A stretch of 64,000 bases of DNA from Polyangiaceae bacterium (GTDB lineage: Bacteria; Myxococcota_A; Polyangia; Polyangiales; Polyangiaceae), in the NCBI GenBank assembly GCA_029261965.1, contig JAJDAH010000477.1:62001-126000 (forward strand), read 5' to 3'. A model generated the notes under the pieces. The model worked only from the letters and a program-made list of their open reading frames with translations. It was not told where the DNA came from and did not search any database. Made by a program: the position numbers and the translations under genes. Of this stretch, positions 24,379-35,640 are shown in pieces; position 1 is the first letter of the stretch, and the number at the start of each line of letters is the position of its first letter.

Positions 24379-25428
24379 CTATCCGCCGACTTCGACCGCG
24401 TCACCGAGCGTCTCCCGCAAGAACTCGCGCAGCCTCTTGGTCATCCGCGCTTCTAGCTGTCGCACGCGTTCTCGGGACACACCGAACTCGTTGCCGAGCT
24501 CCTGCAAGGTGAGCGGCTCGTCGGCCACGACGCGTTTGTCGAAAATGATGAGCTCCTTGCCCTCGAGGGTTTCACGGAATACGTCGAGCCGCTCGCGGAC
24601 GATTTCGGCGATTTCGCGTTGTTCCGCGACGGCGTCTGGCGCAGCGCCGGTGGACGGCAAGAGCTCCAGTCTCGTGGTCTGGCGTCCTTCGGCGTCCCCG
24701 ACGGGCACATCCAACGATGCGTCGCCGCGCGACAACCGACGATCCATTTCGACGACTTCTCTTTCTTCGACCTTGAGACGTTTGGCGATTTCGGCGTCGG
24801 TGGGCTCGATGCCCATCGCCGTCAACTTCGCCTTCTCCTTGTTGAGATTGAAAAACAGCTTGCGCTGGGCCTGGGTCGTCCCAATCTTCACCAAGCGCCA
24901 GTTGTTGAGGATGAAGCGCAGCATGTATGCGCGAATCCAGTAGGCGGAATACGACGATACTTTCACTCCCCGGTAGGGGTCGTACCGTTTGATCGCCTGC
25001 ATGAGACCGATGTTTCCCTCTTGGACGAGGTCCATCATGTTGCGATAGGCGCGCCGGTACTCGTACGCGATCTTGACGACGAGTCGAAGGTTCGACGTCA
25101 CGAGCTTGGCCGCGGCGTCCACGTCACCGGTCTCCGCATAGCTGACGGCCAGCTCCTTTTCCTCCTCCGGCGTCAAGAGCGGATGCTTCTGCACCTGGTT
25201 CATGTACGCCTGAAGCGCGTCCATGCGCGCCAGCGATTTCCCACCGCCGACCTTGGCGGGCGTGCTCGCCGGCACTACCTCCCCCGTGGCGTCGACTACC
25301 GCCTGCTCGGCCAACGCCTCGTCATCCAGATCCCCATCGGAATCGTCGGTGGACTCGCCGTCGTCGGAGCTCTCCGGGGGGGGCGAAGATGCCCGAGAGC
25401 GTTTTTTGGTCTTTTTTCTGGCGGCCAC
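24379..25428 (-). CDS. RNA polymerase sigma-32 (RpoH)-type sigma factor with acidic N-terminal extension
   Basis: 349 residues, longer than the roughly 285 of enteric RpoH because of a charged N-terminal extension of about 65 residues. Region 2 is intact (NMMDLVQEGNIGLMQAIKRY, SSYSAYWIRAYMLRFI), the RpoH box QRKLFFNL is present, and region 4 ends in a helix-turn-helix (LTLQELGNEFGVSRERVRQLE). It is probably a heat-shock or alternative sigma factor; lineages of this kind often carry several RpoH-like paralogues, so the regulon is uncertain. GTG start with a GGAGA Shine-Dalgarno. Confidence 0.88.
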   Translation of the reverse strand: MAARKKTKKRSRASSPPPESSDDGESTDDSDGDLDDEALAEQAVVDATGEVVPASTPAKVGGGKSLARMDALQAYMNQVQKHPLLTPEEEKELAVSYAETGDVDAAAKLVTSNLRLVVKIAYEYRRAYRNMMDLVQEGNIGLMQAIKRYDPYRGVKVSSYSAYWIRAYMLRFILNNWRLVKIGTTQAQRKLFFNLNKEKAKLTAMGIEPTDAEIAKRLKVEEREVVEMDRRLSRGDASLDVPVGDAEGRQTTRLELLPSTGAAPDAVAEQREIAEIVRERLDVFRETLEGKELIIFDKRVVADEPLTLQELGNEFGVSRERVRQLEARMTKRLREFLRETLGDAVEVGG

Positions 25429-25497
25429 GCGATCTCCGGAGGCCGGAGAGGGTGTGTCCGGTGGGGCCCTCGGTCAAGCCGAAACCCGGTTTGAGTC

Positions 25498-25503
25498 TAT
25501 ACT
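25498..25503 (+). promoter_or_regulatory. -10-like TATACT upstream of the TerB/Coq4-like gene
   Basis: TATACT lies 31 bases before GTG 25535 in the gap divergent from the sigma factor. It is close to the -10 consensus; no convincing -35 is seen. Confidence 0.35.
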
Positions 25504-25534
25504 CGCGAGGGTTGAACCAGCGTTCGGCGGAACC

Positions 25535-26659
25535 GTGATCGATACGAAGCACGACGTAGCCAGTTTTCCCATCGAGGACCGCATCGCCTACGCCACGGTC
25601 GTCGGCTCCATGGCGGCGGCCGACGACGTGGTGTCCGGCGCCGAGTTGAGCCGCGTGAGGGAGATGTGTTCCTTGCTCAAGCTCACGAGCGAGCAAGCGG
25701 AGCATATCGTCGCCGCCACCGAGAAAGGCGGCGCGGAAGCGACCGAACGCGCGCTCACCCGACTCAGGACCGCAGACCTCAAATTCACGCTCTACACCGA
25801 CTGCCTGGCCCTCGCCTACGCGGACGAACAGGTAGTTCCAGAGGAGGAGCGCGCGCTGGACGAAGTCGCCCGAGCCCTCGGGATCAACGCCGAACAGGTC
25901 GCCGTGCTGCGAGAGTACGTCGAGGTGACACGAAAGGCCGCGACCGACGACGCCAGCGAACAGGAGCTCGAGGAAATCGGCGCTCGGATGAGCGCCAAGA
26001 TGGAAGCGGCGAAGATTCCAGTCAGCACGGTCGCGGCGTGTTCGACGGCGGGGCTCATCACGACGGGCGTCACCGCCGGTTTCGCGGCGCTCGCGGCCGG
26101 GCTCGGAATCGGAACGGGCATCGGTGCGCTCGTTGGTCTCGGCGTCGGCACCATGTTGGGGGTCAAGTGGCTGCACAACCGCCTCGTGTCCACCGACAAC
26201 GAAAAACGATTCGAGTTTCAGAAGCAGGATACGTCGATGACACTCGCCGAAGGCCTGGCGGAGTTCCACTCGGTGTTCCAGAATTTGAAAGAGGCCAAAG
26301 ACATGTCGTCGCCAGAAGCCGTCGACCTGTTCGCGAAACACGACATTTGCCACGTCGTTTTCGGGTGTGACAACAGCATCGAAAACGAAGCGCTCGTGGA
26401 CACATGGACGGTCTTTGGCACCGACGTGAGCATCCAGAGGTACGTCGAGTACACCAAGGTTCCCGAAGCCAAGGCAGTTTTCGAAGAAACCGGCTACATG
26501 AGGACTCTGCTCGGATCGATCAAAGCCACCCCGAAGCTGTTCGACGTTTTCATGCGAAGTCGAGACATGAAAAAGAAGTGGCCGTTCGACGGACACGACG
26601 CATTCATGGCCCGACCCCTCGGTGCCATCCGCGAAGAATTCGGCATTCGAGTGCTCTGA
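25535..26659 (+). CDS. TerB-like / hydrophobic / Coq4-like fusion protein
   Basis: 374 residues from GTG 25535. Residues 15-120 look like a TerB-type all-helical domain with two acidic repeats (VVGSMAAADDVVSGAELSRV, LALAYADEQVVPEEERALD). Residues 160-215 are a Gly/Ala-rich hydrophobic stretch that could span or insert in a membrane. Residues 240-374 resemble Coq4: the motif H-D-I-C-H followed by eleven residues and Glu (H269, D270, H273, E285) matches the HDxxHx(11)E metal site, and the tail contains GYMRTLLGSIKATPKLFDV. Coq4 works in ubiquinone synthesis; the fusion suggests a membrane lipid or stress role, which is inference. It diverges from the sigma factor. Confidence 0.72.
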   Translation: MIDTKHDVASFPIEDRIAYATVVGSMAAADDVVSGAELSRVREMCSLLKLTSEQAEHIVAATEKGGAEATERALTRLRTADLKFTLYTDCLALAYADEQVVPEEERALDEVARALGINAEQVAVLREYVEVTRKAATDDASEQELEEIGARMSAKMEAAKIPVSTVAACSTAGLITTGVTAGFAALAAGLGIGTGIGALVGLGVGTMLGVKWLHNRLVSTDNEKRFEFQKQDTSMTLAEGLAEFHSVFQNLKEAKDMSSPEAVDLFAKHDICHVVFGCDNSIENEALVDTWTVFGTDVSIQRYVEYTKVPEAKAVFEETGYMRTLLGSIKATPKLFDVFMRSRDMKKKWPFDGHDAFMARPLGAIREEFGIRVL

Positions 26660-26703
26660 ACGGATCTCGACCGACCGCCGCTTCTCGCCCGAGGGCGCGC
26701 TGA

Positions 26704-26709
26704 TATGCT
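26704..26709 (+). promoter_or_regulatory. -10-like TATGCT heading the PPIase-HupE-DUF3604 unit
   Basis: TATGCT ends 6 bases before ATG 26716, with no Shine-Dalgarno. It would give a leaderless transcript for the three-gene unit. Confidence 0.42.
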
Positions 26710-26715
26710 GCGCGC

Positions 26716-27561
26716 ATGTTGAAACGGCTTCTGCTTCACCCCGGGCTGCACTTTGCGCTCGTCGGCACGCTGCTCTTTTTCGCCCACCGCGTCGTTCGTA
26801 GCGAAGGAGATGATGCGTCGATCCTCGTCACACGCGCCACCGTCGAAGCACTCCGCGATCAGCATGTCGAGCGCACGGGCAAAACACCGACCGAGGAGCA
26901 GGAGGCTCAGCTCATCGACGCCCATGTGCGGGCCGAAGCGCTCTATCGCGAAGCCATCGCGCTCGGACTGCACGAAGGCGACGCCATCGTGCACCGTCGG
27001 CTGGTGCAAAAAATGGAGTTTCTCGTCGAGGACGGAGCGCATGTCGAACCGCCGAGCGACGCCCAGCTCGAAGAGTATCTCGAGGCCAACCGCCACGCGC
27101 TCGTCGTACCCGAGCGTCTGAGCCTGACCCACGTCTTCGTCGGAGATCGCTCGGAGTTGCGTGCGGACGAGATCCTGAGGAAGCTGCGCTCCGGAGAGGC
27201 GGCGGCCGATCTCGGTGACCCGTTTCTCAGAGGTCCCGAGGTCGTCGCCAAGACGCCTGCGCAGATCGCGGGCCTTTTTGGCGAAGCGTTCGCCGAGAAG
27301 GTTTCGAAATCGGCGCCGAAACGGTGGCACGGCCCGTTCGAATCGAGCTACGGGCTGCACCTCGTCCGGGTCCATGAGCGCGTGGCTGCGCGCTCGCCCG
27401 CGCTCGAGGAAGTGCGCCAACCCGTCCGCGCTGCATGGCTGCGGGAAAAGCGCGAGGCCGCGGCGCGAGAACGAATCGAGGGGATTCGACAGCGCTACCG
27501 AGTCGACATCGAGCCTCCGACTCGAAACGACGCGGATTCGGCGAAGCAGGCCCGTCGATGA
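26716..27561 (+). CDS. Membrane-anchored parvulin-like peptidyl-prolyl isomerase
   Basis: 281 residues. An N-terminal hydrophobic anchor (about 8-26) is followed by a SurA/PpiD-like helical region (40-120) and a parvulin-like domain (about 125-230) with LSLTHVFVGDR, FGEAFAEKVSKSAPKRWHGPFESSYGLHLVRVHER. The C-terminal part of the domain fits PpiC well, while the N-terminal catalytic part is shortened (ADLGDPFLRGPE), so isomerase activity is uncertain. It probably acts as a periplasmic chaperone. It is the first gene of a coupled unit; its stop overlaps the HupE start (ATGA). Confidence 0.78.
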   Translation: MLKRLLLHPGLHFALVGTLLFFAHRVVRSEGDDASILVTRATVEALRDQHVERTGKTPTEEQEAQLIDAHVRAEALYREAIALGLHEGDAIVHRRLVQKMEFLVEDGAHVEPPSDAQLEEYLEANRHALVVPERLSLTHVFVGDRSELRADEILRKLRSGEAAADLGDPFLRGPEVVAKTPAQIAGLFGEAFAEKVSKSAPKRWHGPFESSYGLHLVRVHERVAARSPALEEVRQPVRAAWLREKREAAARERIEGIRQRYRVDIEPPTRNDADSAKQARR

Positions 27562-28529
27562 TAAAAATACTTCTGTGGGCGCTCGGGCTCTGGTTGTGGA
27601 GCGCTCCGGCGATGGCTCACGAATTTCGCGCGGCAGTCCTGTCGATCGACGCCCGGGCCGACGGCGTTTACGAGGTCGCCTGGACGGTGCGACGGGGCTC
27701 GAGCGCCGAAGCGCGCCTCCGGCCCCACCTTCCCGGCCACTGCCAGAGCGGGCCAAAACACGCCGAACGGCATGGCGCGACGACTCGATCGTCGTGGACG
27801 GTGAATTGCGGTGCTGTCGGCCTGGCAGGTCAAAACATTCGAGTCGAGGGTCTCGCGGACCCAGACAGTGTCTTTCTGCGAGTGAACGCCGAGCGTGAAA
27901 CCACCGTTACCCTGCATGCCGGCGCGCCCGCGCACACGCTATCAGCCACGGGCGCAGAGGGAGGAAACGGCTGGATGGCGTATGCGCGACTCGGGGTCGA
28001 GCACATCGTCACGGGCATCGACCACGTCGCCTTCCTCCTGGTCCTGGTGTTGTGGGTCGGCGGCGGCTTGCGGTTGGTCAGCGCCGTCACTGGTTTCACC
28101 ATCGGGCACAGCATCACGCTGGCCCTGGCGGTGACAGGCCAGGTCGCGGTGCCCGCCGAGCCGGTGGAAACCTTGATCGCCCTGAGCGTCGTGTACGTCG
28201 CCCTGGCGCTCGCCCTAGGGAAGCGAGCCACCGAAACGTCGACGCCATGGTTGGCACCCGCCGGTTTCGGCTTGCTGCACGGTCTCGGGTTCGCCGGCGC
28301 GCTGACCGAACTGGGCATCCCCACCGCCGAGATCCCGAAGGCTCTTTTCGCCTTCAACGTCGGCGTCGAGCTCGCCCAGCTCGGTCTCGTGGGCGTCGCT
28401 CTGGGCGCGCTGTGGCTCGTGAGGAAACATCGCCAGCCCTGGGCGCGGACGGCAGTGGCCTACGGAGTCGGCAGCGTCGCCGCCTTCTGGACGTTGGACC
28501 GCGCGGCGTGGCTCTGGGGGGCAAGCTGA
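27558..28529 (+). CDS. HupE/UreJ-like membrane protein
   Basis: 323 residues. A signal peptide ends at APAMA, giving a mature N-terminus HEF, followed by a periplasmic domain of about 120 residues with two Cys. The C-terminal half has about six membrane helices and the family blocks: GVEHIVTGIDHVAFLL, GFTIGHSITLALA, GFGLLHGLGFAGAL and FNVGVELAQL. Conserved His residues in membrane helices suggest metal handling, as proposed for HupE/UreJ nickel transport, but the periplasmic domain sets this subtype apart. It is coupled both ways (ATGA with the PPIase, TGATG with DUF3604). Confidence 0.85.
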   Translation: MIKILLWALGLWLWSAPAMAHEFRAAVLSIDARADGVYEVAWTVRRGSSAEARLRPHLPGHCQSGPKHAERHGATTRSSWTVNCGAVGLAGQNIRVEGLADPDSVFLRVNAERETTVTLHAGAPAHTLSATGAEGGNGWMAYARLGVEHIVTGIDHVAFLLVLVLWVGGGLRLVSAVTGFTIGHSITLALAVTGQVAVPAEPVETLIALSVVYVALALALGKRATETSTPWLAPAGFGLLHGLGFAGALTELGIPTAEIPKALFAFNVGVELAQLGLVGVALGALWLVRKHRQPWARTAVAYGVGSVAAFWTLDRAAWLWGAS

Positions 28530-30478
28530 TGAGGTGGTCGCGCGTTTTTGGTGCACTCACGACGGCGTTGGCCGCTTGTGGCGACCCGCAATCCTTCGTC
28601 TTGCCGGCGCCGGACGCTGGCGAGCCCCCAGCGCCGTTTCGGTACACCGAAGAGCGCGCGCCGTGCGCCGATCGAAATCCGCTGAGAAACGTGTATTTCG
28701 GCGATCTCCACGTGCACACTCGTTTCTCCTTCGACGCCTACTTTTGGGAAACTCGCGCGGACCCGAGCGACGCCTATCGTTTTGCCAAGGGCGAGCCCAT
28801 CCGGATCCCACCGAGCGACGCCACGGGGCAGCCGTCGCAAACCGTGCGACTCGCGCGAGCCCTGGATTTTGCCGCAGTCACCGACCACGCCGAGTTTCTG
28901 GGGGAAATATCCACCTGCGACATGCCCGGGCAACCAGGGTTCGACAGCACGTTCTGCCAGAACTACCGAGCCTTGGACGCCGATGCGTTTCTGGCGCTCG
29001 GCACGAGCCTGACCTCGCCCTCGCCCCCGCGGCAGGCCGAGGTCTGTGACGAAAGCGAATGTCAGAGCGTCACGCGCAACGTCTGGCAACGCATCGCCGA
29101 AGCCAATGACGCCGCCTACGATCGCTCGTCGGCGTGCAGCTTCACGACTCTGCACGGCTACGAGTGGTCCGGCAACACCGACTTTCGCAACCTGCATCGC
29201 AACGTGATCTTCCGCAACGGCCAGATCCCCGATCGACCGGTGTCTTACTACGATGCGCTGACGCCTGAGCAGCTGTGGGCACGACTCGACACATTGTGTG
29301 AAGACGTCGGCCCGGAGTGCCAGGTTCTGGCCATCCCTCACAACTCCAACCTGAGCAATGGAGGCATGTTCTCTCCGGTGTACCCCGGCGCAGAAACACT
29401 GTCGGACGAGCGAGAGCAGGCCGCGCTGCGCGCGCGCGTCGAGCCCCTCGTCGAGACGTTCCAGCACAAAGGCAACTCGGAATGCACCCCGAGCATCTCT
29501 GGAATCATCGGCGCGCCCGACGAGCTGTGCCGTTTCGAAGAGATCGTGGGAAACAACGAGGACTGCGGCGACGAGATCGGCAATCTCGGCATTCTCGGCA
29601 TGGGATGCGTCTCGCGTCACGACTACGTACGCAACGCCCTTCTGCTCGGCATGGCGGAAGAGGAGCGCCTCGGGGTGAACCCGCATCGCTACGGTTTCAT
29701 CGGGAGCACCGACACGCACAACGCCACCGCCGGCGCAGCGGAAGAAAACGACTACGACGGTCACGTCGGCAACGAGGAGGACACGGCGGCGGAGCGACTC
29801 GGTCCTGGCTTTGCGCAGCCGAGTGGCATCATCGGCAACCCCGGTGGCCTGGCGGGTGTCTGGGCCCTCGAGAATTCACGCGACGGCATTTTCGACGCAC
29901 TCGCTCGGCGCGAAACCTTCACGACGAGCGGAACACGCATCGCGCCCCGCCTCTTCGGCGGGTGGGGATTCGAACCAAACCTCTGCAACGACCCGAAGAT
30001 GCTCGAAAAGGCCTACGAAAGCGGCGTGCCCATGGGCGCAACGCTGCCGGCGCGGGGAGGCGCAATGGCACCGACATTGATCGCGGCGGCGCTGCGGGAC
30101 GCCGCCGGCGAGGTGCCGCTACAGCGCCTTCAGATCGTCAAGGGTTGGATCAGCGCGAATGGCGACTCGAGGTACGAAGTGTTCGACGTCGCCGGTGAGG
30201 CCGACAACGGCGCGACCGTGGACGACTCGACCTGCACCCCGTCCGGTTCGGGGTTCGATTCGCTGTGCAACGTCTGGACCGACCCTGATTTCGATCCGGC
30301 ACGGCCCGCGTTCTACTATCTCCGAGTCGTCGAAAACCCCACTTGCCGTTGGAGCTGGCGGCAGTGTCTACAGTTTACGAGTGGTGACCTTCCACAGGGG
30401 TGCGCGCGAACGGACATTCCGCACACCATTCAAGAGATGGCTTGGTCGTCGCCCATTTGGTACACGCCGCCGAGCTGA
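28529..30478 (+). CDS. DUF3604 family lipoprotein (PHP-like metal-dependent hydrolase fold)
   Basis: 649 residues. The lipobox is TTALAAC (Cys near residue 17). Metal-ligand-type motifs typical of PHP phosphoesterase folds are present: DLHVHT (residues 59-64), TDHAEFLG (118-125), IPHNSNLSNGGMF (about 270) and STDTHNA (about 392). Conserved Cys pairs suggest an oxidising compartment. DUF3604 proteins are widespread and uncharacterised; a secreted, lipid-anchored metal-dependent hydrolase is inferred. It is the last gene of the coupled unit with the HupE-like protein and the PPIase, which could supply metal and folding help. Confidence 0.83.
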   Translation: MRWSRVFGALTTALAACGDPQSFVLPAPDAGEPPAPFRYTEERAPCADRNPLRNVYFGDLHVHTRFSFDAYFWETRADPSDAYRFAKGEPIRIPPSDATGQPSQTVRLARALDFAAVTDHAEFLGEISTCDMPGQPGFDSTFCQNYRALDADAFLALGTSLTSPSPPRQAEVCDESECQSVTRNVWQRIAEANDAAYDRSSACSFTTLHGYEWSGNTDFRNLHRNVIFRNGQIPDRPVSYYDALTPEQLWARLDTLCEDVGPECQVLAIPHNSNLSNGGMFSPVYPGAETLSDEREQAALRARVEPLVETFQHKGNSECTPSISGIIGAPDELCRFEEIVGNNEDCGDEIGNLGILGMGCVSRHDYVRNALLLGMAEEERLGVNPHRYGFIGSTDTHNATAGAAEENDYDGHVGNEEDTAAERLGPGFAQPSGIIGNPGGLAGVWALENSRDGIFDALARRETFTTSGTRIAPRLFGGWGFEPNLCNDPKMLEKAYESGVPMGATLPARGGAMAPTLIAAALRDAAGEVPLQRLQIVKGWISANGDSRYEVFDVAGEADNGATVDDSTCTPSGSGFDSLCNVWTDPDFDPARPAFYYLRVVENPTCRWSWRQCLQFTSGDLPQGCARTDIPHTIQEMAWSSPIWYTPPS

Positions 30479-30481
30479 GAC

Positions 30482-31000
30482 TCAGTCGACCCGAAGCGAC
30501 TCGATGAGCTGGCGGACCTGGGACGTCTCCGGTCCGTGCTTCAGGAAAACCCGCGGACCTTGCCAGAGCAGGGCCGGGCCCGCCGTAGCGAAGATCTTCC
30601 ACGGAAATCCGGGTCGGAAAGCGAACGCCAGACCAGAAAACATGCTGCGCACGGCTCCGGCCCAAAATCCTTTGCCCTCGACGACGATCGCGACGGAATC
30701 GACACGATCACCTAGCTTCTGCAGCATCGAGATCGCGCGCTTGCGCGTCTCGTCACCCGCGAGAGGCGCCGAGCTCCGCACGACCAACAGCACGGCCACC
30801 CGACCCTGCTGCTCTGCGATCTCCTCGAGCTCGAGATCGAGTCGTTCGACGTCGCGAGGATTCGCCGCGCCCCACCACGAGCTGACGTGCAGCATGCCGA
30901 CGGACGCGCTCGCAAAGCTCATCCCGACGGCGGGAACGGGTGATGCGCGCATCTCGAGCTGAGCATCGGTGAGGGAGGCAGCGCGGATGGGGTGTGCCAT
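30482..31000 (-). CDS. Hypothetical protein, STAS-like character
   Basis: 172 residues, no signal peptide. The alternating beta/alpha pattern (VAVLLVVRSSAPLAGDETRKRAISMLQKLGDRVDSVAIVVEG) and a later FPWKIFATAGPALLW segment resemble the uncharacterised STAS/SpoIIAA-like proteins found beside kinases in this lineage. The match is by pattern only. Convergent with the DUF3604 gene. A TAACCT hexamer lies 9 bases before the ATG. Confidence 0.55.
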   Translation of the reverse strand: MAHPIRAASLTDAQLEMRASPVPAVGMSFASASVGMLHVSSWWGAANPRDVERLDLELEEIAEQQGRVAVLLVVRSSAPLAGDETRKRAISMLQKLGDRVDSVAIVVEGKGFWAGAVRSMFSGLAFAFRPGFPWKIFATAGPALLWQGPRVFLKHGPETSQVRQLIESLRVD

Positions 31001-31805: not shown

Positions 31806-33452
31806 GTGTTCGACGCTTTAGCCCGAGGGTTTCGGGAGGCGCGCAATCGCCTGTCCGGTCTCACCGAGCTCAACGAAAAGAGCATCAAGGCAGCGCTGCG
31901 CGAGATCCGACTGTCGCTGCTCGAAGCGGACGTGGAACTCGGGGTCGTCAAGCGCTTCCTCGCTCGAGTGGAGGAAGCGGCGCTCGGCTCCACGGTGCAG
32001 ACCCGCATCAAACACGGGGGAGACACCCACCAGGTCACGGCGGGCGACCAGTTCATCAAGATCTGCAACGACGAGCTAGTCAAGCTACTCGCCCACGACG
32101 GCGAAGTCGTCGCCTACGCGCCGTCGGGCAGTCGGACCGCGGTGATGATGGTCGGGCTCCAAGGCTCGGGTAAGACGACGACTGCCGCAAAACTCGCGCT
32201 CTGGTTCCAGAAGCAGGACCGCAAACCCATGCTCGTCGCCGCAGACATGCAGCGCCCCGCCGCGGTCGAGCAGCTCAAGGTCCTCGGGGAACAGATCGAC
32301 GTCCCCGTTTTCAACATCCCCAACGAAACCCCGGTGGCCATCTGCACCGCTGCCGACGCCGAAGCTCAGAAGCTCGGTTGCGACGTGGTCATCTACGACA
32401 CCGCGGGCCGACTCGCCATCGACGAACCGTTGATGACGGAGCTCGGAGAAATCAAGAGTGCGGTCACGCCGGACAATGTACTGCTCGTCATCGATGCGAT
32501 GATCGGCCAGGACGCCGTCACCACCGCGAAGAGCTTCAACGAGCGGCTCGCCATCAGCGGCGTCGTGCTCACGAAGCTCGACGGTGACGCCCGAGGCGGC
32601 GCAGCGCTGAGCGTGAAAGAGGTGACGGGGGCCCCCGTTGCTTTCGTCGGCCTCGGTGAGACTCTCGACAAGCTCGAGGAGTTCCGGGCCGAAGGCATGG
32701 CGGGCCGAATCCTCGGCATGGGCGACGTCGTCGGCCTGATGAAGGATTTCGAGGACGTCGTCGATCAGAAGAAGGCGGAGGAGGACGCCGCCAAGATGCT
32801 GTCGGGCGACTTCACGCTCGAAGATTTCCTCAATCAGGTGCGAACCATCCAGCAAATGGGCTCGCTGAAGGATCTCGTCGAGAAGATGCCCGGTCTCGGC
32901 GGAATGATGCCGCCAGGAGCCGACCTGGACGACGGCGAGCTCGTCCGGATCGAAGCGATGATCCAATCGATGACGAAGGCCGAGCGGCGGGATCCGAACA
33001 GCATGGTGCGCGAGCCGACTCGAGTCGCACGCGTCGCAAAAGGCTCAGGGCACACCGAACAAGCTGTCGGCGAGCTGATCCAGAAGTTTCTCTTCATGAA
33101 GCAGATGATGGACGGCATGGGTCAGAACATGGGCATGCTGGGGAACATCCCGGGCATGAAGAACGTCGCCATGGCTCGCAACATGCGTCGAGCCATGAAA
33201 AGCGGGAAGATGCCCGGTGGCGGCATGCCGGGAATGCCGGGGATGCCGGGGATGCCCGGAATGCCGGGGATGCCGGGGATGCCACCCATGGGAGTGCCCG
33301 GAATGGGAATGCCGGGAATGGGAATGCCCGGCGCCGCCGGTCCCGCGTCCGAGCCAGCGAAATCCATGAAAAAGCTCTCGAAATCGGAAAAAAACGCTCG
33401 AAAGAGCCAACGCAAACGCGAACGAGCCGCCCGCAAGAAGGGGAAAAAGTGA
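31806..33452 (+). CDS. ffh: Signal recognition particle protein Ffh (SRP54)
   Basis: GTPase that binds signal sequences and 4.5S RNA and delivers ribosomes to the membrane through FtsY. At 548 residues it is about 100 longer than typical Ffh. The N and G domains are canonical: GLQGSGKTTTAAKLA (G1), DMQRPAAVEQL, YDTAGRLAIDEPLM, TKLDGDARGGAALS and GLGETLDKLEEF. The Met-rich M domain (about 325-450) carries the RNA-binding part. The extra C-terminal tail holds seven tandem M-P-G tripeptides, then more Met/Gly/Pro, and ends in a Lys/Arg-rich segment. It overlaps the next gene (TGATG). Confidence 0.95.
   Translation: MFDALARGFREARNRLSGLTELNEKSIKAALREIRLSLLEADVELGVVKRFLARVEEAALGSTVQTRIKHGGDTHQVTAGDQFIKICNDELVKLLAHDGEVVAYAPSGSRTAVMMVGLQGSGKTTTAAKLALWFQKQDRKPMLVAADMQRPAAVEQLKVLGEQIDVPVFNIPNETPVAICTAADAEAQKLGCDVVIYDTAGRLAIDEPLMTELGEIKSAVTPDNVLLVIDAMIGQDAVTTAKSFNERLAISGVVLTKLDGDARGGAALSVKEVTGAPVAFVGLGETLDKLEEFRAEGMAGRILGMGDVVGLMKDFEDVVDQKKAEEDAAKMLSGDFTLEDFLNQVRTIQQMGSLKDLVEKMPGLGGMMPPGADLDDGELVRIEAMIQSMTKAERRDPNSMVREPTRVARVAKGSGHTEQAVGELIQKFLFMKQMMDGMGQNMGMLGNIPGMKNVAMARNMRRAMKSGKMPGGGMPGMPGMPGMPGMPGMPGMPPMGVPGMGMPGMGMPGAAGPASEPAKSMKKLSKSEKNARKSQRKRERAARKKGKK
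33225..33287 (+). repeat. Nine-base tandem repeat in ffh encoding Met-Pro-Gly
   Basis: Seven near-identical units of the form ATGCCGGGG encode the Met-Pro-Gly run in the Ffh tail. The length may vary between strains by slippage. Confidence 0.85.
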
Positions 33453-34168
33453 TGGCCCTCAGGCTGATGACCGGAAGGTGGCTGGCGGCAGGGACGCTCT
33501 GTGCGGTCGCTGGCTGCAGCCAGCAGGGCGACAAGCGCGAGCCGCCGAAGGTGGATCGCGCGCTGCAGCAATACATCCTCAGCACGGTGCCGGGTGATGC
33601 CGGCACCGAAATCACGCGTACGCATCTCGACTTCGAAGGCAAGATCCACCTGGTCGGCTACGAGATCGAACCGGCAGACCGCGTGGCCCTCGGCGGGACA
33701 GTCCAACTCAAAATGTACTGGCGAAGCGTCGCGCCGCTGTCCGACGGATGGCAACTGTTCACGCACGTCGTCGATGGAGCCGGACGACTCGTCCAGAACG
33801 CAGACGAGAACGGCCCGCTCCGCGCCCCAGCGACAAACGCTCAGGGCGAGCGCACGCAAAAGCTGCCGCCCAGTGACTGGGAGCCGGGCAATGTCTACGT
33901 CGACGAGCAGTCGATCGAGATCCCCGCCAACGTGAAGTCCGAATACGTTGCCATCGCCGTTGGGATCTGGCGCTACAAGCACCGCAAGGACGCCGATGGT
34001 GGGGCTCTCGAACCCATCGACATGCGTCTGAAGGTAACGAGTGGGCCGTCCGACGGACAGGAGCGGGGGATCGTCGCCAAGTTACGAACCGATTACCGGC
34101 GTCCCGCCCCGGCCCCGGCCCCGGAAAAAGAGCCAGAGGAGCCGGCTGCGGCGGCTCCGCAAGGATGA
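33452..34168 (+). CDS. Lipoprotein with a single beta-sandwich domain (paired with next gene)
   Basis: 238 residues, ATG overlapping the ffh stop (an in-frame GTG lies 3 bases earlier). The signal ends at AVAGC. The domain (about 40-185) contains LKMYWRSVAPLSDGW, LFTHVVDGAGRLVQNADENG and VYVDEQSIEIP, a pattern shared with the N-terminal domain of the next gene and with the ligand-binding beta sandwich found at the end of some membrane glycosyltransferases. A carbohydrate- or lipid-binding role is inference. The C-terminal tail is Pro/Glu/Ala-rich. Confidence 0.7.
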   Translation: MALRLMTGRWLAAGTLCAVAGCSQQGDKREPPKVDRALQQYILSTVPGDAGTEITRTHLDFEGKIHLVGYEIEPADRVALGGTVQLKMYWRSVAPLSDGWQLFTHVVDGAGRLVQNADENGPLRAPATNAQGERTQKLPPSDWEPGNVYVDEQSIEIPANVKSEYVAIAVGIWRYKHRKDADGGALEPIDMRLKVTSGPSDGQERGIVAKLRTDYRRPAPAPAPEKEPEEPAAAAPQG

Positions 34169-34182
34169 ACGGAGGAAACCCC

Positions 34183-35640
34183 ATGCGCCGTATCGCTACA
34201 ATTGCGCTCTCGACCGTGTTGGCCACCGCCTGCGTCGGTGGCTCCAAGGAAGTGAACGAGACGGACAAGGCCCGGCTTGCTGCCTTCGTCTTGGACAAGG
34301 AGCCAGCCATCGCGCACAAGCGCGAGATCAACTTCGAGGACAAGATCCGCTTGCTCGGATACAAAACCGAGCCAAAAGGAGCTGTTCGTCCGGGCCAGAA
34401 GGTGAAAGTCACCTTGTACTGGAAGGTCGACAAGGCGCTAGGCGAGGAAGGGTGGAACCTGTTCACCCACGTGCTCGATGGAGCTGGCGAACGCATTCTC
34501 AACATCGACAACGTCGGCCCGCTTCGTGAATGGAGAGAGACCCGGCAGGTGATGTGGCCGAGCTCGTGGAAGGTGGGCAAGGTCTATGTCGACGAGCAGG
34601 AATTCACGGTTCCGCGCACCGTGAAAACCAACAAGATTCAGATCGTCACAGGCCTCTGGAAGGACGCCAAACGGCTCAAGATCACCAAGGGCCCGAACGC
34701 CGGAGAAAATCGCGCCCTCGTCGCGGCCTTGCCGACGACCGCGGCGCCCGCCGCGCCGAGCAAGGTGGTCACTCGAGCGCCGCTCATTCGAGTCGACAAG
34801 CTCGAAAAAGACTCGAAAATCAAGATCGACGGCAAGCTCGACGACGACGCCTGGAAAAGCGCTCCTTCAACCGGCGCGTTCGTCGACGTCAAGACGGGCC
34901 GACCGAATTCGAGCTTCCCGGTGAAAGGGTCGGCGAAGCTTCTGTGGGACGACGAGGCGTTCTACATCGGCTTCGACATCAAGGATCCCGACATCATCGG
35001 AGGGTTCAAAGCGACTGACGTCGACCCGCACCTCTGGACGAAAGACACCGTCGAGATCATGATCGATCCAGACGGCGACGGCGACAATCGCGACTACTAC
35101 GAGATTCAGATCAACCCGCAGAACCTCGTCTTCGACTCGCAGTTCGACGAGTACAACAAGCCGCGAAAGGAACCGAACGGTCCTTTCGGACACCAGGATT
35201 GGTCCGCGAAGCTCGAGAGCGCCGTCACCGTCACCGGAACACTCGACAAACCCGGAGACAAGGACACCGGCTACGTCGTCGAGGCCAAGATCCCTTGGAA
35301 GTCGTTCGGCAAAGCCAAAAAGACCCCACCCGAGCTCGGACAAACGTGGCGCATGAACTTCTACGCCATGCAGAACAATTCCGGAGTCGCGTGGTCTCCC
35401 ATTCTCAATCAAGGCAACTTCCACAAGGCGTCGCGATTCGGAAAGGTGCTGTGGGCTGAAAAAGGCTGGAAAGAGCCCATTCCTGCCCCACCATCGAGCG
35501 CTTCGGCGGTACCCGCGGGGAGTGGCCAAGTCCCGCCGCCTCCGGTATCCGGCAAGAAGACGATCATCCCACAGCCAAAGCTCGACCCGAGCAAGCTGCC
35601 TAGGCTAAAACTACCGAGCGGTGGTCCAAAAGCGAAGTGA
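34183..35640 (+). CDS. Lipoprotein with beta-sandwich plus CBM9-like domain
   Basis: 485 residues. ATG 34183 is chosen over ATG 34165 because GGAGG lies 7 bases upstream of it. Lipobox ATAC. Residues 25-170 repeat the domain of the preceding lipoprotein (LFTHVLDGAGERILNIDNVG, VYVDEQEF). Residues 200-430 match a family 9 carbohydrate-binding-like domain: IDGKLDDDAWKSA, AKLLWDDEAFYIGFDIKDPDI, TKDTVEIMIDPDGDGDNRDYYEIQ and WRMNFY. The DPDGDGDNRDY segment is a plausible Ca site. The tail is Pro-rich. It probably binds polysaccharide at the cell surface. Confidence 0.8.
   Translation: MRRIATIALSTVLATACVGGSKEVNETDKARLAAFVLDKEPAIAHKREINFEDKIRLLGYKTEPKGAVRPGQKVKVTLYWKVDKALGEEGWNLFTHVLDGAGERILNIDNVGPLREWRETRQVMWPSSWKVGKVYVDEQEFTVPRTVKTNKIQIVTGLWKDAKRLKITKGPNAGENRALVAALPTTAAPAAPSKVVTRAPLIRVDKLEKDSKIKIDGKLDDDAWKSAPSTGAFVDVKTGRPNSSFPVKGSAKLLWDDEAFYIGFDIKDPDIIGGFKATDVDPHLWTKDTVEIMIDPDGDGDNRDYYEIQINPQNLVFDSQFDEYNKPRKEPNGPFGHQDWSAKLESAVTVTGTLDKPGDKDTGYVVEAKIPWKSFGKAKKTPPELGQTWRMNFYAMQNNSGVAWSPILNQGNFHKASRFGKVLWAEKGWKEPIPAPPSSASAVPAGSGQVPPPPVSGKKTIIPQPKLDPSKLPRLKLPSGGPKAK

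Follow-up and report, generated by a model that had tools for sequence, protein, structure and literature searches.

What could a parvulin-like peptidyl-prolyl isomerase (PPIase), a HupE-type membrane protein and an exported DUF3604 protein share, that their genes should overlap from end to end? This arrangement is found at positions 26716-30478 of the Polyangiaceae DNA analyzed here, a stretch of 64,000 nucleotides (hereafter, the window). We report that the linkage of these three genes is far above chance, and that the DUF3604 protein is predicted to contain a PHP-type hydrolase domain. We propose that the PPIase and HupE constitute an accessory pair, responsible for folding and for metal, that serves exported metallohydrolases, with DUF3604 as the usual client; we give this reading about an even chance of being right. 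The trio comprises the following genes:

26716-27561, + strand: gene 1, PPIase (Rotamase_2), 281 amino acids
27558-28529, + strand: gene 2, HupE_UreJ_2, 323 amino acids
28529-30478, + strand: gene 3, DUF3604 lipoprotein, 649 amino acids

An earlier note on this DNA had described the genes as coupled stop-to-start, and the coordinates are exactly as it claimed: the PPIase stop and the HupE start share the bases ATGA (27558-27561), while the HupE stop and the DUF3604 start meet in TGATG (28527-28531), with an overlap of one base. Pfam recognized Rotamase_2 (4.4e-13), HupE_UreJ_2 (4.7e-44) and DUF3604 (3.7e-172), and NCBIfam added no confident family to the three proteins.

Conservation of the arrangement was surveyed in the named-genome collection, where HupE (alignment A1) served as the bait; the resulting 80 loci, chosen without selection on DUF3604 or PPIase, were then searched with the three family profiles. 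A PPIase adjoined HupE in 77 of the 80 loci, and 50 had a DUF3604 gene on the same strand no more than 2.5 kb away. Among the 49 loci with complete flanks, 34 had DUF3604 within 6 kb. For Myxococcota, 70 higher-scoring HupE loci yielded a PPIase in 53 cases and DUF3604 in 30, and none of ten lower-scoring HupEs, which belong to other subfamilies, was accompanied by either; these ten controls are not a clean "no ectodomain" set, because three of them (L142, L145 and L149) carry another N-terminal domain. The gene order varied: DUF3604-PPIase-HupE was present in 38 of the named loci, and PPIase-HupE-DUF3604, the order of the window, in 12. Because the HupE tree requires at least seven changes between these two orders, the association has re-formed or been reshuffled repeatedly. 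The tree spans eight phyla (Pseudomonadota, Myxococcota, Acidobacteriota, Bacteroidota, Verrucomicrobiota, Cyanobacteriota, Thermodesulfobacteriota and Campylobacterota, the last represented by a 3-kb contig showing neither PPIase nor DUF3604). Thus, the earlier note's premise that the three families co-occur beyond close relatives is amply borne out by both the survey and the tree.

The order DUF3604-PPIase-HupE was also found on annotated plasmids of Sinorhizobium, Rhizobium, Rhodobacter, Roseibium, Ruegeria and Pseudoalteromonas, where the PPIase and HupE genes mostly overlap by 4 nt. On an accessory plasmid of Sinorhizobium meliloti (L034), the trio sits between virB/type IV secretion genes and relaxase genes; as this plasmid is typed conjugative, the trio it carries is probably horizontally mobile.

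We also compared the presence of the families in whole genomes. Among 282 Myxococcota genomes, 75 encoded this HupE type, 112 a full DUF3604, and 73 both (p 7e-36), and among 196 Sphingomonadales genomes all 65 with DUF3604 fell within the 69 with HupE (p 1e-47), leaving four HupE-positive genomes without DUF3604; both the counts and the p-values ignore phylogeny. Of 13 genomes having the pair but no neighboring DUF3604, 11 had a DUF3604 gene elsewhere. Copy numbers differed between the partners: eleven trio genomes contained one to nine DUF3604 genes each, and pair-only genomes up to about 15-20 (fragments counted), against one or two full-length HupEs of this type per genome. In one locus from Vicinamibacteria (L156), six DUF3604 genes stand in a row around a single PPIase-HupE pair, and other loci have two or three. 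This excess of DUF3604 over HupE fits an accessory pair serving several enzymes.

Three Myxococcota families (coded f20, f24 and f36) showed very large DUF3604 expansions, with up to 49 first-look candidates per genome. The window genome itself has a 785-amino-acid frame (G000:C69:81122-82609; L002, L003) that DUF3604 matches twice, each time in part; it is a distant relative, and weak matches of this kind are present in many related genomes.

What, then, might the DUF3604 protein be? The family is large, has no known function and is sometimes present in many copies per genome; functional literature on it was not found, beyond its mention in a single paper as a transposon target in Chlamydia, in a search outside which lay most subscription journals and bioRxiv preprints. 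The AlphaFold2 model (pLDDT 88, pTM 0.90) predicts two domains, and the candidate metal ligands, which were assigned by the order of motifs, fall in the first of them:

about residues 52-465: predicted PHP-fold metallohydrolase domain (structure model)
about residues 469-649: predicted C-terminal beta-sandwich (structure model)
28577-28579, + strand: lipobox cysteine C17 (LAAC)
28709-28717, + strand: PHP motif I, H61-x-H63, invariant in 57/57
28883-28888, + strand: PHP motif II, D119-H120, D in 56/57 and H in 57/57
29162-29197, + strand: PHP motif III, E212 and H223, 57/57 each
29339-29341, + strand: PHP motif IV, H271, 57/57
29711-29719, + strand: PHP motif V, D395-x-H397, 57/57 each

Using VIA-align, the best match of this model in the PDB was 3e38 (Z 16.3, 233 residues aligned, root-mean-square deviation [rmsd] 3.9), followed by 2anu (Z 14.9). 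Further PHP proteins, including RNase AM and the PHP domains of DNA polymerase III, scored Z 10-8, and unrelated rows fell below 4. Plain Foldseek gave no match at E <0.001, and the PHP fold emerged only with VIA-align. By sequence, the protein did not match Pfam PHP (PF02811), DUF3604 being its sole Pfam match at E up to 0.1; direct sequence kinship with the CehA/McbA carbamate hydrolases was considered and rejected, as there was no NCBIfam match. The motifs that the earlier note had listed, DLHVHT (H61, H63), TDH (D119, H120), HN (H271) and STDTH (D395, H397), are all present, and the nine PHP-type ligands occur in PHP order, eight of them invariant among 57 diverse members and D119 conserved in 56. 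Whether the predicted structure has a metal site had been set beforehand as a test of the unit; the modeled PHP fold, with its complete PHP-type ligand set, suggests that it does. The protein is thus modeled as a PHP-type hydrolase domain joined to a beta-sandwich, with a predicted metal-dependent activity. Its predicted lipobox (LAA-C17) agrees with the lipid anchor proposed earlier. More generally, a simple pattern scan of the DUF3604 proteins near the pair gave a Sec signal peptide or a lipobox, with Tat motifs nearly absent; their folding and metal uptake should therefore be periplasmic, in the compartment of the PPIase.

The HupE protein of the window has a signal peptide, an ectodomain and seven predicted helices (model pLDDT 90), and matches PF13795 with 150 bits. 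The HupE/UreJ-like multi-pass protein with a periplasmic domain that had been proposed is consistent with the model, in which a beta-sandwich ectodomain precedes the HupE_UreJ_2 helices. Candidate metal ligands and invariant residues are:

27618-27620, + strand: His21, predicted first mature residue (AMA/HEFR; cleavage by inspection), candidate metal ligand
28002-28025, + strand: HX5DH motif (H149, D155, H156), invariant in 79/79
28107-28109, + strand: H184, invariant in 79/79
28278-28280, + strand: H241, invariant in 79/79
28368-28370, + strand: E271, invariant in 79/79

The mature N-terminal residue is His in 65 and Asp in 14 of 79 HupE homologs. The modeled ectodomain resembles zinc-binding ZrgA (8F1B; Z 10.2) and PA4063 (Z 9.6), as well as 9GCE, the Ang-1 domain, loaded with copper, from another HupE/UreJ-2 protein (Z 8.2, 102 residues aligned, rmsd 3.0); in sequence, neither phmmer nor the 79-row profile matched the trio HupE to RbAng-1a. 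The N-terminal domain of HupE/UreJ-2 proteins was named "anglerase" in a 2025 paper on signal strapping, in which Ang-1 binds Cu (dissociation constant, Kd, 74 nM) and Ni (220 nM) via its N-terminal histidine and is proposed to feed the permease (PMC12537917).

The PPIase combines an N-terminal hydrophobic anchor with a Rotamase_2 domain (50.5 bits, cut-off 27), as expected for the membrane-anchored parvulin-like chaperone of the earlier note, and its profile relatives in the PDB are PEB4, HP0175, SurA and PrsA. Both parvulin-domain histidines, H139 and H215, are present; across 44 PPIases, H215 is conserved in all, and position 139 is His in 21 and Gln in 23.

If the pair serves exported enzymes, DUF3604 need not be its only client. 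Arginase-family enzymes are dinuclear metallohydrolases, and members with signal-peptide-like N-termini adjoin PPIase-HupE in Tropicibacter (L205), Falsiruegeria (L231) and Novosphingobium (L235). The order is arginase-PPIase-HupE in L256 and PPIase-HupE-arginase in L255, i.e., both orders known for DUF3604. Profile A7, built from such neighboring exported arginases, detected the family in 13 Sphingomonadales genomes, every one with HupE (p 6e-7), including two of the four HupE-positive genomes that lack DUF3604 (G460 and G608). Client replacement is suggestive, not conclusive, because most other arginase carriers have the DUF3604 trio and an unlinked arginase. In the Falsiruegeria family, a single-sequence query for the exported arginase gave no match at a strict cut-off, though one such protein adjoins the pair, and the cut-off there was therefore too strict. 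Elsewhere, hupE adjoins nickel-dependent ureohydrolases such as metformin hydrolase (PMC11399263).

Other neighbors of the pair were diverse, and the idea that one family stands in for DUF3604 at every pair-only locus was accordingly rejected. In all, arginase-family (ureohydrolase) neighbors with signal-peptide-like N-termini were noted in seven alphaproteobacterial loci (L205, L231, L235, L241, L247, L255 and L256), exported ureohydrolases being unusual in themselves. Parallel beta-helix proteins lie near PPIase-HupE, on the same strand, in eight loci (L106, L172, L178, L187, L198, L204, L222 and L224), seven of which have no nearby DUF3604; those of L204 and L222 match TIGR03805, the others cluster with these, and the group is a possible further partner of the pair. 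Long neighboring open reading frames (e.g., in L122, L133, L076 and L128) were left out because they look like spurious high-GC frames, and MBL and M28 neighbors (L106, L115) were not counted, their export not being clear. On plasmid pSC52_1 of Rhodobacteraceae SC52 (L240, 6583-6979), the Zur-box-like sequence GTTATGATATAACATTTC directly follows a PPIase-HupE unit, whose accompanying DUF3604 is truncated, and precedes a DUF1826 gene and the genes of two GTP-binding proteins of probable COG0523 type.

That the three genes travel together across many phyla suggests that the PPIase and HupE prepare DUF3604. Sec would export the chain in an unfolded state, and in the window organism the chain would also be lipidated; the PPIase, anchored in the inner membrane, would hold or fold it in the periplasm. 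HupE may capture a transition metal through its N-terminal-His ectodomain and intramembrane HX5DH site, and either help to load the client or keep the periplasmic metal supply right for it. Once mature, the client would be a hydrolase of the PHP type whose center holds two or three metals, and would act outside the cytoplasm on an ester or phosphoester. The earlier note had suggested that HupE supplies metal to DUF3604 or anchors it, and that the PPIase helps to fold it. Metal supply and folding are retained here as the best-supported, if still conjectural, model; an anchoring role is unnecessary, because the window DUF3604 has its own lipobox. A broader version, which we consider somewhat unlikely, would make PPIase-HupE a general periplasmic metal-insertion machine, in which the anglerase domain is a metallochaperone, the anchored PPIase holds clients open, and the clients are exported hydrolases of the di- or trinuclear kind, both PHP enzymes of the DUF3604 family and enzymes of the arginase family.

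The main rival, in our view an unlikely one, is metal acquisition: HupE would be an anglerase-permease bringing Cu, Ni, Zn or Co into the cytoplasm, DUF3604 would hydrolyze a metal-carrying ligand or metallophore to free the metal for uptake, and the PPIase would fold either envelope protein. The anglerase model of HupE/UreJ-2 (PMC12537917) and the ZrgA fold of the ectodomain favor it, and it is compatible with the TonB/ExbD genes adjoining the trio in Ruegeria AD91A and with the COG0523-type/DUF1826 cluster, with its Zur-box-like sequence, adjoining PPIase-HupE in Rhodobacteraceae SC52; however, the surveyed loci have no consistent receptor or metal-regulator neighbor, and the many DUF3604 paralogs per genome, together with replacement by arginase, misfit one metallophore-opening enzyme. 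It is improbable, we believe, that PPIase-HupE alone is the functional unit, with the PPIase folding the HupE ectodomain for general metal homeostasis and DUF3604 merely co-expressed under shared conditions. Although the pair is indeed tighter (77/80) than the DUF3604 link (50/80), the trio survives changes of order, Sphingomonadales DUF3604 is never found without this HupE (65/65), and DUF3604 is sometimes swapped for another exported metallohydrolase rather than simply lost. We regard as rather improbable a catabolic unit, in which periplasmic DUF3604 hydrolyzes an organic substrate (ester, carbamate or phosphoester), either the product or a counter-ion is transported by the HupE-like protein, and metal is incidental. 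Neighbors encoding SDR, enoyl-CoA hydratase and acyl-CoA ligase/dehydrogenase proteins in a minority of loci, and the large DUF3604 expansions of some lineages, would suit such a role, but the metal-type motif of HupE is invariant (79/79), its relatives carry metals, and the pair is also found beside proteins of the arginase family, which form different products.

Preparation of exported metallohydrolases accounts most simply for the linkage, the swapping of gene order, the excess of clients and their replacement. Several points nevertheless weigh against it, besides the neglect of phylogeny in the genome counts. The HupE proteins known so far carry nickel to the cytoplasm, where it would be of no direct use to a periplasmic enzyme. 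The predicted mature N-terminal His is Asp in 14/79 HupE homologs, and parvulin position 139 is Gln in 23/44 PPIases. In Myxococcota, 39 of the 112 DUF3604-positive genomes are without this type of HupE; many DUF3604 genes are located a long way from a PPIase-HupE pair, and in most Sphingomonadales carriers the exported arginase does not adjoin it. Nor is there a pointer to metal from regulation: ten trio loci contained no riboswitch, only a tRNA, and no regulatory palindrome recurred upstream of the loci. Finally, the model is built entirely by computation, which yielded operon structure, conservation, order swapping, invariant ligands, predicted folds, client replacement and client excess; that the PPIase folds the client and that HupE supplies its metal is our inference, as is anything said here on which metal moves in which direction and on the DUF3604 substrate.

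The surroundings of the trio in the window include a further short feature, which the earlier note had taken for a shared promoter:

26704-26709, + strand: TATGCT string, real as a string; promoter role unsupported

A promoter at this box is unsupported, because just 6 nt lie between the string and the PPIase start codon, the first of the trio, and no sigma-70-type site or promoter-like hexamer pair was found in 26400-30900; a sigma-70 promoter there was rejected on this ground, and at best the string would yield a leaderless transcript. Directly upstream of the trio, and outside the conserved unit, lies a gene (25223-26659) for a TerB-domain protein with a glycine-rich hydrophobic stretch. 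Downstream, two overlapping neighbors (33449-34168 and 34165-35640) have similar N-terminal parts, the second also having a CBM9 domain, and give the impression of a secreted protein duplicated in tandem.

How much of this unit is new? The earlier note had called it undescribed. This does not hold for the HupE ectodomain, a type described in 2025 as anglerase (PMC12537917), and HupE-plus-metalloenzyme operons are likewise already known; the trio and its DUF3604 link were not found described in the literature searched, nor was any co-mention of HupE UreJ with peptidylprolyl isomerase. Such absence is weak evidence, because most subscription journals and all bioRxiv preprints lay outside the search. 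As far as could be found, the new element is that a HupE operon includes a periplasmic PPIase together with a PHP enzyme that is exported. The PHP fold, full set of metal ligands and two likely accessory genes make DUF3604 activity directly testable, the anglerase permeases gain a specific candidate client in DUF3604, and the trio hints at how bacteria metallate enzymes beyond the cytoplasm.

Each component has relatives among known systems. DUF3604 shares the fold and the order of metal-binding motifs with PHP hydrolases (BVU_3505/3e38, TM0559/2anu and RNase AM/7ug9), but has larger insertions, a C-terminal beta-sandwich and export or lipidation, and does not match Pfam PHP by sequence. The PPIase has the parvulin domain and envelope location of SurA, PrsA, PEB4 and HP0175; unlike them, it is short, anchored in the inner membrane and encoded beside HupE, with one parvulin residue often replaced. 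The HupE/UreJ nickel permeases of hydrogenase, urease and metformin hydrolase operons (PMC2667541, PMC11399263) similarly place an HX5DH-type membrane domain beside a metalloenzyme, whereas in the trio the client is exported, HupE has an extra ectodomain, and a periplasmic PPIase replaces cytoplasmic nickel chaperones such as HypAB. Anglerase Ang-1/HupE-UreJ-2 (PMC12537917; 9GCE), like the trio HupE, has an N-terminal His after the signal peptide, a beta-sandwich ectodomain and a C-terminal HupE/UreJ-2 membrane domain; in contrast, the trio ectodomain is not recognized in 9GCE by sequence, is closer in fold to ZrgA (Z 10.2 vs. 8.2), and is accompanied by a PPIase and DUF3604, neither of which is named in the main text of that paper.

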